Shown here piece by piece: positions 31,806 through 37,765 of a stretch of 47,018 nt of DNA. The stretch's first letter is position 1. Each line of letters starts with the position of its first letter. Origin of the DNA: Deltaproteobacteria bacterium (GTDB lineage: Bacteria; SAR324; XYD2-FULL-50-16); the NCBI GenBank assembly GCA_029881655.1, contig JAOUME010000004.1:1-47018 (forward strand), written 5' to 3'. The position numbers and the translations under genes are program-made. The notes under the pieces are model-generated. The model made no database searches. It was not told where the DNA came from and saw only the letters and a program-made list of their open reading frames with translations.

Positions 31806-33638
31806 TCAAGTTTTAGGAATTTTTTTGGAATCCTCCAAAAGGATATTTTTTGCGGCGTCCCCCATAATCGAGTCCGCCAAATCCCGGGTCAGATCACCCA
31901 TCTTATCGATGGCTTCCTTGAGGAGCATGGGGTTCTCGTTTTTTCGCAAATCCTCCATGACCTTGCGGTGGGCCGCGATCGCTTCGATCTGATCGGGGGT
32001 GACGAACTGGTCGGCCTTATGCCAGATACGGTCTATCCCATCGATGATGGTGGTGATCTTGTCCCGAAACTCCACCAGATTACGCTGATTAAAATCATCG
32101 ACCGCGTATTCCATCGAATCTTTGATCATACGGGTGATCTCGTTTCGATTTAGACCGTGGGTGGGAATGATTTCGATTTTAGACTCCACTTCGCTTCTGA
32201 GTTCCTTGGCCGATACGGTCAAAAGCCCGTTCACGTCCACGAAAAAAGTGACTTCCACCTTGGGCAGTCCCGCCGGCATGGGAGGAATCCCTTTTAGAAC
32301 GAATTTGCCGAGCTTTCTGCAATCCCGCACGAACTCTCTTTCCCCCTGAAAAATAGACAGTTCGATTCCCGTCTGGTTATCCACCGATGTTGAAAAGACT
32401 TCCGTGACCTTAGCGGGTATCGAGGCGTTTTTCATCACCATCTTTGAAAAAACCCCGCCTATCGTCTCGATTCCAAGAGACAAAGGGATCACATCCATCA
32501 AAAGATAATCCTTCCTGCCGCCGGACAGCAGATGCCCCTGAATGGCCGCGCCGATCGCGACGACCTGCTCCGGATTTATACGGATATGGGGTTTTATCCC
32601 GAAAAATGCCTCCACCAGATGCCTGACCAGCGGGATACGGCTGCTTCCCCCGACCATGACCACCTCCTCGATATCCCCGGCGGTCAACTCCGCGTCATGC
32701 AGCGCCTCCTTGACATGAGCGAGGGTCTCCTCCACCTTGGGGCGGATCTCTTCTTCGAATTCCTTTTGACTTAAAGAATACTTCGTCTTGATCCCTCTTT
32801 CGGGAAGTTCGATCTCAAGGCTTGTCTCAAGATTCGTACTCAGAGCGATCTTGAGGATTTCAGAGCTTCTTTTAAGCCGCTGGATCGTCTCCGGCGAGAG
32901 TTCCTTTTCGTCTTTGACCTCCGGCAGGATATCTCTGATCATGCGCCGGATGATCAGATTATCCAGATCGTCTCCCCCAAGATGGGTATCGCCTCTGGTC
33001 GAGATCACCCTAAAAAGCCGGTCTTTCAATTCCAAAACGGAAACATCAAAAGTCCCGCCACCGAAATCATAAACCGCTATCTTCCCTTTTTTGTTCTCCT
33101 GAAGCCCGTAGGCGATGGCGGCGGCGGTCGGCTCGTTGATGATCCGGGTGACCTCCAGTCCCGCGATCTGGGCGGCGTCCTTGGTGGCTTGCCTTTGGGC
33201 ATCGTCGAAATAGGCCGGCACGGTGATGACCGTTTTTTTGACCGCTTTCCCCAAAATAATTTCAGCCTTGCGCTTGATCTCCCTTAATACCTCCGCTGAA
33301 ATCTGCTCGGGACTCAACTGCGCGCCTTCTTCCCCGATCAGAATCTTATCGCGCTCGCCGATTATAACCTTAAAGGGTGATAAAGTCAGGTTCTCTGAGA
33401 TGTCTTTGGCCCCCCGGCCCATAAACCTTTTAAAAGAGGTGAAAGTAGTGCGGGGATAGTTGGTTCTTTGATTTAACGCCTCCGCTCCGACCAGGAGGCC
33501 GTTTTCGGTCTGGCTGACCACGGACGGGGTTTGGGTCGTAAAATAGCTGTCCTCGATTATTTCCGCTCCGGTCTCTGAAACATAAGCCGCCATGCTGTTG
33601 GTCGTCCCCAGGTCGATCCCGATAATCAGCTCGCTCAT
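31806..33638 (-). CDS. hscA: Fe-S assembly Hsp70-type chaperone HscA
   Basis: HscA is the specialised Hsp70 that binds the LPPVK motif of IscU and helps release the iron-sulfur cluster. The 610-residue protein has the Hsp70 ATPase motifs GIDLGTTNS (7-15), [14 protein letters not shown] and [19 protein letters not shown] in the N-terminal ~380 residues, followed by the beta-sandwich substrate domain and a helical lid. Its length and position after hscB indicate HscA rather than DnaK. IscU here contains LPPVK, as expected for a functional pair. Confidence 0.94.
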
Positions 33639-33664
33639 ACGATTACTATTATAAACAACTCGAT

Positions 33665-34351
33665 TTAGTTGAGATTATCTCTTAGATTTTTACCGATCAT
33701 GCGGATTCTTTCTCCCAGATTATCCAGAAATTTCAGCTTGGCCAAATTTGAAAGAATCTTCCCGGCAGTCATTTTGTCTTCACGGTTAGGGATATAGGCC
33801 TTGAAATCGGCGGATAGCGCCTCGTCTATCTCCTGAAGGAGTAGGTTGATCCTCGCCTCGGTTTGCTTTAGACTCCCGCTCCCCTCCTGAACCAGATCAA
33901 GCTCTTCTTGTATCTCGAACATCTCTAAAACAAAAGCCTGGGGCGGCTGAGGAATCATGCCGTCAAACCCCGGCATCAAAAGGCTTAGAAGATAACGGCC
34001 CCTTTTGAAGGGGTAGAACAGGGTTTCTTTCGCCTCGTAGAGAAGCGCCGTGTGGCTGAGACTGAGGGCCTGGTCCTCCTTGGAACCGTTGACATACATA
34101 TCCGGATGAAGAGCGAATATAAGCCGCTCGAAAGCGGCGGTCACCTCCTTCTTGTCTATGTCATAACCCGGACTGACTCCGAAGATGGAAAAATAATTCA
34201 TCGTTTTGTTGTACTGCTGGATCTTCTCACAGGCCGTGCAGTAGATCGTATGCTTCAGCTCGCTGTCACACTTGTCGCAGCGCTCCGAGGCACAGTGATG
34301 GTGTCCGTGATGATCTGATTTGTCTTCCTTCAATTCTTCTGAGGGGATCAT
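33665..34351 (-). CDS. hscB: Fe-S co-chaperone HscB with zinc-finger N-terminus
   Basis: HscB is the J-domain co-chaperone that delivers IscU to HscA. The 228-residue protein has a J-domain with the HPD motif (82-84) and a C-terminal helical domain for IscU binding. It is longer than E. coli HscB (171 residues): residues 1-50 hold a His-rich stretch (HHGHHH) and a Cys25/Cys28...Cys38/Cys41 zinc-finger pattern, a feature better known from some eukaryotic HSCB proteins. It lies 13 bases after iscA and 26 before hscA. Confidence 0.9.
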
Positions 34352-34364
34352 GCGTCCTGGTATC

Positions 34365-34706
34365 TTATAGGGTTGGGGCCTTGGGGGTAAAAGAAGTTCC
34401 GCAACCGCAAGCCGCGTCAGCCTTCGGGTTTAAAAACTTAAACCCTCGGTCCATCAGACTGGTGTTAAAATCCACTTGCGTGCCGTCGATATAGATCAGG
34501 CTTTTCTTGTCCACGATGATCTTGATGCCCATCGATTCGAACACCTCGTCGAAATCGCCCACCTTGTCGTCAAAGTCGAAAACATAAGTAAAACCGGCGC
34601 AACCACCGCCCTTGATCCCCAGGCGGATACCAGTGCCCTCGGGCAACTGGTTTTCCTTTACCACTTTGCTGATTTCTTTCACCGCGTTTTCCGTTAAGCT
34701 GATCAT
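34365..34706 (-). CDS. iscA: A-type iron-sulfur carrier protein
   Basis: IscA-family proteins carry iron-sulfur clusters to apo-proteins. The 113-residue protein has the three conserved cysteines Cys36 (GGCAGF), Cys100 and Cys102 (ACGCGTSF) at family spacing. IscA, SufA and ErpA are hard to separate by sequence alone; the isc operon context favours IscA. It is 17 bases after iscU. Confidence 0.93.
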   Translation of the reverse strand: MISLTENAVKEISKVVKENQLPEGTGIRLGIKGGGCAGFTYVFDFDDKVGDFDEVFESMGIKIIVDKKSLIYIDGTQVDFNTSLMDRGFKFLNPKADAACGCGTSFTPKAPTL

Positions 34707-34723
34707 GTCGTTCCTCTTCTTAT

Positions 34724-35104
34724 TTAAGTATTTTGCTTTCTTTGTTTATAGTCCTTGATCGCCGCCTTGATGGCATCTTCAGCCAAGACCGAGCAGTGAA
34801 TCTTCACCGGCGGCAGGTTCAACTCCTCGGCGATCTCCGAATTGGTTATCTCGGCCGCCTCCTCGATCGTTTTCCCCTTGACCCATTCGGTCGCGAGGCT
34901 TGAGCTGGCGATCGCGCTGCCGCACCCAAAAGTCTTGAACTTCGCGTCGATGATCCGGTCGTTTTCCACCTTCAGCTGGAGTTTCATCACGTCGCCGCAC
35001 TCCGGAGCTCCGACAACTCCCGTCCCCACGTCCTTATCCTCTTTCTCGAAACTCCCCACGTTGCGGGGAGCCGTATAATGGTCGATCACCTTGTCGCTGT
35101 ACAT
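34724..35104 (-). CDS. iscU: Iron-sulfur scaffold protein IscU
   Basis: IscU is the scaffold on which IscS sulfur and iron form clusters. The 126-residue protein has the ligand cysteines Cys36 (PECGD), Cys61 (FGCGSA) and Cys104 (HCSVL), the Asp38 that tunes cluster release, and the HscA-binding motif LPPVK at 97-101. It is 40 bases after iscS. Length and all motifs are typical. Confidence 0.97.
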   Translation of the reverse strand: MYSDKVIDHYTAPRNVGSFEKEDKDVGTGVVGAPECGDVMKLQLKVENDRIIDAKFKTFGCGSAIASSSLATEWVKGKTIEEAAEITNSEIAEELNLPPVKIHCSVLAEDAIKAAIKDYKQRKQNT

Positions 35105-35144
35105 TCTTTCTCCTTATTGAAATCCATTACCCTCAGTTGATAGA

Positions 35145-36362
35145 TCAATGAGTCTCAGCCCACTGAATTTTGCTGATGTCGATCCCCTCTTTCGCCATAT
35201 CGTACAAGGGGGACATTTCCCTTAATCTCTGGACGACGCTGGTCGTCTTCTCGATGGTTTTCTCTATTTCCTCATCTGTGGTAAAGCGGCCCAGACTGAA
35301 CCGGATGGAACAATGCGCCAGTTCCGGCCCGATTCCAAGAGCCCTTAAGACGTAGGAGGGTTCCAGACTGGCCGAGGTGCAGGCCGAGCCGGATGAAACG
35401 GCGATGTTTTCCATGCCCATCATCAGACTTTCTCCCTCCACATAGGAAAAACTCAAATTCAAAATACCCGGAAGTCTCTTTTGGGGGTGTCCGTTCAAAA
35501 AAACATAATCCAGATTCTCCTTTAGGCCCGCTTCCAGTTTCTCTCTCAGGGAAATCAATCGCTGGCTCTCCTGAGACATCTCTTGCATACAGTAGTAACA
35601 AGCCGCCCCCAGACCGATGATCCCCGGAACGTTCAGGGTTCCAGAGCGCATCCCCCTCTCATGGCCCCCGCCAAACACGATGGGCGATAACCGCACCCTG
35701 GGGTTTCTCCGGCGGACATAAAGCGCGCCGATGCCTTTGGGTCCATAAATCTTATGGCCGCTCAGAGACAAGAGATCGATCTGCGCCTTATCGACGTCGA
35801 TGGGGATTTTCCCCGCCGCCTGGGTTGCGTCCGTATGAAACAATACCCCGTGCTTGCGCGCAATCCGGCCGATCTCGTCTATGGGATGCAGAACGCCGAT
35901 CTCATTGTTGACCGCCATCAGGGATATCAAAATCGTCTGGTCGGTGATGGCCGCTTCCAATTCCGTAAGGTCGATCATCCCGTTTTTATCCACCTTCAAA
36001 AAGGTCGTCTTAAAGCCCTGGGTTTCCAGGTGGTGAACAGGGTCTAGCACAGCCTTGTGCTCCGTCAGGCAAGTGATGATGTGATTGCCCTTTTCCCTGT
36101 ACATCTGCGCCGCTCCCAAAATCGCCAGATTATTGGATTCGGTGGCCCCGCTGGTAAAAATAATTTCCTTGGCCGAACAACCAACCAGAGACGCGATCTG
36201 CTCTCTAGCGTTCGTTACAGCCTCGTCAGCCTTCCAGCCGAACCAGTGATTGCGGCTGGCGGCGTTGCCGTAATGCTGGATGAAAAACGGCGTCATCGCT
36301 TCGAAAACCCTGGGATCAACCGGCGTTGTCGCGGCGTTGTCCAAATAAATATAATCACTCAT
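35145..36362 (-). CDS. iscS: Cysteine desulfurase IscS
   Basis: IscS is a pyridoxal-phosphate enzyme that takes sulfur from cysteine for iron-sulfur clusters and other thio-cofactors. The 405-residue protein has the N-terminal [12 protein letters not shown], the PLP lysine in [10 protein letters not shown], and the catalytic-cysteine loop [14 protein letters not shown] that is characteristic of the IscS subgroup. It starts 15 bases after iscR. Confidence 0.97.
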
Positions 36363-36377
36363 AAATCATCCGGCTCG

Positions 36378-36812
36378 TTAATTAATGGGTTGAGGGGAAA
36401 TCGGTTCGAGATTCTTGTCATTGATCATGTCCTCCAGACTCAAACTGTCCATAAAACTTTTAATCTTCCGGTGGATCTTCTCAATGGGTAATTTCGCCGG
36501 ACAATGTTTCTGAGCCCGGCATTCGTAATTGTTATCGGCGCAATCCGAAAACCGCATCGGCCCGTCGATGATCTCGATCAATTCTCCCAGAAAAATCTTT
36601 CCCGGCGCCTTGCCCAGGGTATAGCCTCCGGCTACCCCCCTCTTGCTGCTGACAACGCCAAACGACGACAGGAGTTTCATCACGTTTGAAAGCATCGGGG
36701 AGGAAAGATTGTAAAAACTGGCGATTTCCCTGGCCGAAGCTGGATTCCCCTTCTCGTACAGATGACTCAAGGCCACGATCGCGTAATCGGTTTTTTTCGA
36801 TAGCTTCAGCAT
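36378..36812 (-). CDS. iscR: Rrf2-family iron-sulfur transcription regulator IscR
   Basis: IscR is a winged-helix repressor that senses iron-sulfur status with its own [2Fe-2S] cluster and controls the isc operon. The 144-residue protein has the N-terminal Rrf2 start (LSKKTDYAIVALSHL), a DNA-recognition helix (SSPMLSNVMKLLSSFGVV) and the three cysteine ligands Cys91, Cys98 and Cys104, nearly the E. coli positions (92/98/104) with six residues between the first two instead of five. Residue 107 is Lys rather than the His ligand of E. coli, so its cluster may be held differently. It leads the isc operon and a matching operator lies upstream. Confidence 0.93.
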   Translation of the reverse strand: MLKLSKKTDYAIVALSHLYEKGNPASAREIASFYNLSSPMLSNVMKLLSSFGVVSSKRGVAGGYTLGKAPGKIFLGELIEIIDGPMRFSDCADNNYECRAQKHCPAKLPIEKIHRKIKSFMDSLSLEDMINDKNLEPISPQPIN

Positions 36813-36884
36813 CTCGACAAAATCCTCTTCTTCAATTACAATTAAGAAACACAGTTAGGTTAACGTTTACTTGCTATAGTTAAT

Positions 36885-36912
36885 ATGGTACCAATTTAGT
36901 ACTGATTGTCAA
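36885..36912 (-). promoter_or_regulatory. Predicted iscR promoter
   Basis: On the (-) strand a consensus TTGACA (36912-36907) is followed 16 bases later by TACCAT (36890-36885, four of six). The Rrf2-like dyad at 36888-36902 fills the spacer and overlaps the -10 box, the classic place for autorepression by IscR. Confidence 0.55.
36888..36902. promoter_or_regulatory. Predicted IscR/Rrf2 operator between iscR and ispH
   Basis: GTACCAATTTAGTAC is a 15-bp dyad of form GTACyAAwTTrGTAC. It lies between the -35 and -10 boxes of the iscR promoter and 40 bases before ispH. The sequence differs from the E. coli IscR type 1 site, so the assignment rests on position and symmetry. Confidence 0.55.
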
Positions 36913-36922
36913 GCTTAAATTT

Positions 36923-36937
36923 GTACCTTTTTAGTCT
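36923..36937. promoter_or_regulatory. Weaker second copy of the operator, next to the ispH start
   Basis: GTACCTTTTTAGTCT matches the first copy at 11 of 15 positions and lies 6 bases before the ispH ATG. It is centred 35 bases from the first copy, so a repressor bound here could affect ispH. Confidence 0.35.
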
Positions 36938-36943
36938 TAAGCT

Positions 36944-37765
36944 ATGAAAAATATAATAGTGGCTGAAGCCCAGGGGTTCTGCTGGGGAGTGCGCCGGGCT
37001 CTGGACATCGTCGATCAATATGACGAAGTGTCCATTTTGGGTGACTTGATTCACAACAAGCAGGTGGTCCAGGAACTCGAGAACAAGAACAAGCGGGTCA
37101 TTCAGGAATTAACGGGCAAGGAAAAAAACCCAATCGTGATCACGGCACACGGCACCGATATCTCCAACATCAAACGGCTGGAGAGTCTGGAGATGGAGAC
37201 CGTCGATACCACCTGCCCCCTTGTGAGCGTGATCTACCGGGCGGGAAAGCAGCTGGAAACCGAAGGCTACCAGATCATCATTATAGGCGATAAAAGGCAC
37301 GTCGAAGTCAAGGGGATCGCTTCCCGCATGAAAAACCCCATCATGATCAACGACGAAGACGATCTGGAGAATATCGATCTTCCCGAAAAAGTGGGCATCA
37401 TCTGTCAAAGCACCTTCTCGCAAAACAAATTCAACAAGCTGGTGGAGCGGATAAAGAAAAGAGTCAAGTCCTGCAAGATCAAAAATACCATCTGCGCGCC
37501 CACCATCAAAAGACAGATCGCGGCCGAGACCCTGGCTAAAAGCGTGGACCTCATGATCGTGGTGGGGGGGTATCACTCTTCAAACACCAAGAAACTGGCG
37601 GAACTCGCCAATCAGTACGTCAGGAGCTACCACATCGAGACCGCGGAACACCTCGATCCATTGTGGTTCGAGGGCATGTCTGAAATTGGCATCATCGCCG
37701 GCGCTTCGACGGCGGACTGGATTATTGAGGAGGTGTGCGTCAAAATCGGCGAGTTCGATTTTTAG
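36944..37765 (+). CDS. ispH: 4-hydroxy-3-methylbut-2-enyl diphosphate reductase (IspH/LytB)
   Basis: IspH is the last enzyme of the MEP pathway; a [4Fe-4S] centre reduces HMBPP to IPP and DMAPP. The 273-residue protein keeps the three cluster cysteines: Cys13 (GFCWGV), Cys91 (DTTCPLV) and Cys184 (TICAPTIKRQ). It also keeps VGGYHSSNTKKL and AGASTADW; the family usually has AGASTP, so the Ala-Asp is a small variation. Its protein needs the clusters made by the adjacent divergent isc operon, and an operator-like dyad lies between them, so joint regulation is plausible. IspD of the same pathway is at 13019. Confidence 0.94.
   Translation: MKNIIVAEAQGFCWGVRRALDIVDQYDEVSILGDLIHNKQVVQELENKNKRVIQELTGKEKNPIVITAHGTDISNIKRLESLEMETVDTTCPLVSVIYRAGKQLETEGYQIIIIGDKRHVEVKGIASRMKNPIMINDEDDLENIDLPEKVGIICQSTFSQNKFNKLVERIKKRVKSCKIKNTICAPTIKRQIAAETLAKSVDLMIVVGGYHSSNTKKLAELANQYVRSYHIETAEHLDPLWFEGMSEIGIIAGASTADWIIEEVCVKIGEFDF

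Follow-up and report, generated by a model that had tools for sequence, protein, structure and literature searches.

A conserved palindrome before the isc-leading Rrf2 regulator gene of SAR324 bacteria, a candidate operator next to ispH

We analysed a stretch of 47,018 nucleotides from a SAR324 bacterium (contig JAOUME010000004.1; the window), in which a gene for an Rrf2-type regulator leads an isc operon and stands back to back with ispH. A palindrome lies in the DNA between the two genes. The locus raises the question of whether this palindrome is the operator of the adjacent regulator and, if so, whether it governs the isc operon only or also ispH. A first-pass annotation had proposed that one iron-sulfur-sensing repressor controls both sides. 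The features are listed here, with iscR as the label of the regulator gene.

31806 to 36362, minus strand: iscS-iscU-iscA-hscB-hscA, downstream of the regulator gene
36378 to 36812, minus strand: isc-leading Rrf2 regulator, IscR-like, nearest TIGR02944, with Cys91, Cys98 and Cys104
36813 to 36943: intergenic region between the regulator gene and ispH
36890 to 36885, minus strand: predicted iscR -10, TACCAT, overlapped by the dyad
36887 to 36903, no strand assigned: candidate operator dyad, a 17-bp site with its core at 36888-36902, GGTACCAATTTAGTACT; toward iscR it reads AGTACTAAATTGGTACC
36912 to 36907, minus strand: predicted iscR -35, TTGACA; the other strand, TTGTCA, is the predicted ispH -35
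36925 to 36937, plus strand: stretch with the predicted ispH -10, TTTAGT, after an 18-base spacer; overlaps a rejected second copy of the dyad
36944 to 37765, plus strand: ispH, HMBPP reductase (TIGR00216, 254.7 bits vs a cut-off of 187.85)

A conserved box at the regulator promoter

The core of the dyad, GTACCAATTTAGTAC, has six of its seven half-site pairs complementary, in line with its first description as near-perfect. Its placement within the predicted iscR promoter spacer was also borne out: the dyad occupies the DNA between the -35 and the -10 (16-base spacer, 10/12 hexamer matches, a TG preceding the -10) and extends into the latter as well. The score of the dyad, 22.1, is the highest in the 47-kb window. 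The pattern GTACNAANTTNGTAC, which was derived from the dyad itself and then searched in the window with up to two mismatches, matched there only the dyad, with 0.69 matches expected. Symmetry alone is unremarkable, as 72 15-mers in the window have at least 6/7 symmetric pairs. The deciding evidence is conservation.

We sampled 52 genomes of the phylum, found a regulator with good similarity in about 40 and took the upstream DNA of 39. A 19-base stretch fits NAGTRCYRAWYNRGTRCYA with no more than two mismatches in 34 of these 39 promoters, mostly a few bases downstream of a TTGA -35, and the remaining five fail at that threshold. The resulting phylum box is AGTAC-N7-GTRCT. To avoid circularity, we trained models on some families and scanned others. 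A model built from family f4 only was run on f1, f2 and f3. Each of the four f1 loci received a score of 16.2-20.8, which none of 1000 shuffles reached, and sites at P<=0.003 were present in 5/7 f3 loci. Conversely, a model trained on f1 and f3 found sites in 27/27 f4 loci (P<=0.016). These results support the view that the dyad is a box which this phylum conserves for its isc-leading Rrf2 regulator, and conservation upstream of iscR in related genomes, on which the first-pass annotation had staked its proposal, held. Several genomes of genus g24 (L080-L085) also carry TGTTCCACGTGAAACA, which resembles the parS site of ParB, at a distance of about 115-130 bases upstream of the regulator.

Sites were also found before Fe-S genes other than isc. 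When the phylum was scanned with the f4-type box, several f4 genomes had matches outside regulator promoters, and the genes behind them include those for a CGFS glutaredoxin-rhodanese fusion (TIGR00365), the frataxin CyaY, IscU, SelO, a GlpE-type rhodanese and a radical SAM protein. We then scanned orthologues systematically with a model built from regulator promoters only. A site precedes 16 glutaredoxin-rhodanese genes in 16 genomes of genera g19 and g25 (scores 16.7-25.6), although many g19 genomes are closely related and the 16 sites are not 16 independent events. Every g19 or g25 gene of this kind with enough upstream DNA carries the site; the scan found none at those of other f4 genera. 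The fusion itself, a monothiol (CGFS) glutaredoxin joined to a rhodanese (for example L146:1621-2334), is an unusual one for Fe-S or sulfur trafficking. Sites also precede cyaY in three genomes of two genera (two of g20 and one of g22; 19.6-22.1) and iscU in one genome. For selO the site was present in 2 of 11 genomes (22.0 and 24.5), so we rejected selO as a general target, and a weak match near selO in G030 was set aside as well, since it sits on the 3' side of the gene. In 822 kb of fetched loci, some of which overlap, there were 123 hits scoring at least 15, vs 4 in the reversed sequences. A true operator would be expected to recur in this way, with a model of one promoter recovering sites at unlinked Fe-S genes. 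We conclude that the box marks a predicted Fe-S regulon of isc, glutaredoxin-rhodanese, frataxin, iscU and selO.

The genome of the window behaves differently from f4. Further sites were not enriched there (10 hits vs 31 in a reversed-pattern control), and the box was not found at its own grx and cyaY genes. We therefore rejected the box as the mark of a wider regulon in that genome, to which the f4 regulon does not extend; the regulon there may consist of this region alone.

Because the palindrome is kept across the phylum and recurs before other Fe-S genes, we consider that the Fe-S-sensing repressor encoded beside it very probably binds there.

The regulator and its site among known Rrf2 systems

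The regulator has 144 aa and scores 86.4 bits against TIGR00738 (Rrf2 superfamily), above the cut-off of 73.3. Against TIGR02010 (IscR) it reaches 56.7 bits vs a curated cut-off of 207.55, and the phylum members tested score 60-67 bits. The best specific model is TIGR02944, for SUF-system Rrf2 regulators, yet the score of 92.6 bits is under its curated cut-off of 110.65 (range across members tested, 81.8-97.7 bits). Cys91, Cys98 and Cys104 (window numbering) are invariant in the aligned members, with the spacing C-x6-C-x5-C. As the ligand set of IscR we used E. coli Cys92, Cys98, Cys104 and His107. The window protein fails on the His: three positions after the last Cys it has Lys (CPAK). Because the His ligand is absent and the score falls far under the IscR cut-off, the name IscR does not hold in the strict sense. 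We place the protein in Rrf2, with three invariant Cys, but outside IscR proper and nearer the SUF type. TIGR02944 proteins (Xanthomonas type) go with the SUF system, whereas the window regulator is linked to isc and not to suf genes. Its gene precedes iscS at all loci examined, and it resembles IscR in being the first isc gene behind a conserved dyad, with autoregulation as a prediction. We predict that it holds a cluster that gates its DNA binding; the feature observed in this respect is the three invariant Cys.

The site itself invites comparison with two known ones. The E. coli IscR type 1 consensus is ATASYYGACTRWWWYAGTCRRSTAT, that is, GACT-RWWWY-AGTC. As here, E. coli IscR is the product of the first isc gene with a site in its own promoter, and the central ACTRWWWYAGT is common to both sites, but the G/C outside AC/GT is replaced by T/A here. 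The best-studied comparable three-Cys isc regulator is RisR of Myxococcus xanthus, which represses only; its site is TtGAC-N7-GTCCt, three-Cys RisR protects about 30 bp around GAC-N7-GTC, and the holo form represses isc (PMC9973013). The two systems are alike in a three-Cys Rrf2 protein, an isc target, a 7-base centre lying over promoter elements and negative feedback, which is predicted here. They differ in the site, which here has AGT/ACT around AC-N7-GT where RisR has TtG/CCt, and in the Cys positions, C-x6-C-x5-C here vs Cys92, Cys102 and Cys108. Measured against the RisR-type (IS6) dyad GAC-N7-GTC, the window has TAC-N7-GTA, with equal spacing and another outer base. All three sites share the frame NAC-N7-GTN, the box being TAC-N7-GTA within AGTAC-N7-GTACT, and the central ACYRAWYNRGT with N7 spacing matches both E. 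coli type 1 and RisR. The earlier view that the motif is unlike the E. coli IscR site is right for the outer bases and wrong for the frame, the centre and the spacing.

In a gammaproteobacterial suf operon that has a related regulator at its head, AGTACTGATTAAGTCCT lies 30 bases ahead of the start, with a score of 19.1. Judged by this one locus, the box appears to follow the kind of regulator rather than one phylum. The suggestion of a lineage-specific IscR box is thus sustained as a conserved lineage box of this regulator, but not as a strictly lineage-specific one. In Verrucomicrobia (L012, L018), TTGACTAAATTAGTCGG, with an E. coli type-1-like core, lies 38 bases before an Rrf2 gene. Our search for literature on SAR324 and iscR returned nothing relevant, and regulatory work on the phylum was not found.

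The ispH side and the competing readings

The pairing of the regulator gene with ispH is confined to four genera of family f1 (G000, G007, G008, G009). When these loci were aligned, most of the intergenic DNA had diverged, while the dyad, the octamer TTGTCAAG (36907-36914, invariant in all four) and the CTATGAAAAA start were kept. The distance from the dyad centre to the ispH ATG is 48-49 bases in the four genera, and that from TTGTCA to the ATG is 37-38 bases; the distance from the dyad to the regulator start varies. The simplest reading is that the iscR and ispH promoters are arranged back to back and use one -35 on opposite strands, with the ispH start at or next to the ATG. The ispH mRNA is accordingly predicted to be leaderless or nearly so. 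This promoter is a prediction only, because the ispH -10 hexamers are weak (4/6 matches), and its main support is the constant TTGTCA-ATG distance.

A second, partial copy of the dyad had been proposed at GTACCTTTTTAGTCT (36923-36937). It does lie 6 bases ahead of the ispH ATG (36944), but it scores 2.5 vs 22.1 for the main dyad, a value that 3.7% of shuffled versions of the remaining intergenic DNA attained (P = 0.037), and the three relatives that share the gene pair showed no site of comparable score at that position. We rejected it as an operator copy, weak and unconserved; since it overlaps the likely ispH -10, it needs no separate explanation.

Outside the four genera, the 26 other ispH upstream regions of the phylum gave no site scoring above 5.3. 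We rejected ispH as a phylum-wide target. In the other six f1 genomes close relatives of the regulator and of IscU are absent, with NifU-like matches only, and ispH stands back to back with secA and lacks the box. The sister genera G001-G006 (L208-L213) lack isc-type IscU and have only NifU-like proteins (about 45% identity), which points to a switch of the Fe-S assembly system within f1; several of them have genomes of about 7-8 Mb. Within f1, IspH is 61-72% identical to that of the window, vs about 29-38% for IspH elsewhere in the phylum, and this suggests gene replacement or early divergence of the f1 ispH.

We think it likely that the dyad is the operator of the adjacent Rrf2 regulator, through which isc is self-repressed and ispH most likely co-repressed. 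When Fe-S clusters are sufficient, a cluster-loaded dimer would bind the 17-bp site, block the -35 and -10 of its own promoter and repress iscRSUA-hscBA; when clusters are short, repression would be lifted. In the four-genus sub-clade the bound dimer would also reach the -35 of the divergent ispH promoter. Since the predicted -35 boxes of iscR and ispH coincide on complementary strands, a footprint of about 30 bp, as of RisR, would extend to the shared -35 and both promoters could be repressed. The gene for IspH, a 4Fe-4S enzyme, would then most likely be co-repressed and released together with its maturation machinery. Of the proposal that one repressor serves isc and ispH, the isc part is backed by the conserved box, and the ispH part is predicted from the fixed spacing and the shared -35.

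It is unlikely that the dyad controls the isc operon only, with ispH a neighbour that has its own constitutive promoter. This reading draws on the sister genera, in which ispH pairs with secA where the isc operon is missing and has no box, on the box working in other families with no ispH nearby and on the second copy not being real. Against it, the gene pair, the dyad and the ispH spacing are kept in four genera despite diverged intergenic DNA, and a bound dimer would overlap the shared -35. We give still less credence to the possibility that the bound regulator activates ispH, its occupancy removing competition for RNA polymerase from the overlapping iscR promoter. The position of the dyad centre, about 47 bases ahead of the predicted ispH start, and the weak ispH -10 would suit activation, and E. 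coli IscR activates sufA and ydiU, the ydiU (selO) promoter being IscR-dependent (PMC12594620). However, the TTGTCA that serves as the predicted ispH -35 would fall inside a 30-bp footprint, and the repression-only behaviour of RisR (PMC9973013) also argues for the opposite sign.

That a different protein, such as a second Rrf2 paralogue, binds the dyad is very improbable. At least two more Rrf2 genes occur in the genome, one of which has AGGACTAATTTAGTCCT upstream with a score of 18.1 under the same model; but across the phylum the box goes with the isc-leading regulator, at that regulator's own promoter, and family members without the regulator and isc-type IscU have no excess of sites over control. 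That a palindrome arose by chance in AT-rich promoter DNA can be practically dismissed: common as symmetry is, chance fits neither the conservation across the phylum nor the recurrence of the site at unlinked Fe-S genes. At G000:C47:13989-14007 (L004, L063) of the window's genome, the second Rrf2 gene encodes three Cys in C-x6-C-x5-C, and AGGACTAATTTAGTCCT is a perfect 17-bp palindrome of the RisR type GGAC-N7-GTCC, about 36 bases upstream. It differs from the isc box in one symmetric base pair, by which the paralogues may thus be told apart.

Implications for Fe-S control

Beyond co-repression, we offer a fuller picture that we hold tentatively, somewhat short of probable: an uncultured phylum in which the Rrf2 Fe-S regulator is distinct and has a box to itself, AGTAC-N7-GTRCT, and a sub-clade that captured ispH through a shared -35 and a leaderless mRNA, so that one dimer would throttle both promoters. 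In the open-access literature we found nothing on ispH under an Fe-S Rrf2 regulator or on iscR paired with ispH regulation.

The box gives the phylum a testable operator and a small predicted Fe-S regulon (isc, glutaredoxin-rhodanese, frataxin, selO). With selO/ydiU also a target of E. coli IscR, the target sets recruited by different Rrf2 Fe-S regulators seem to overlap, and the outer base pair of the common AC-N7-GT frame may separate Rrf2 specificities. At the iscR/ispH locus, the arrangement would tie Fe-S homeostasis directly to the final step of the MEP pathway.
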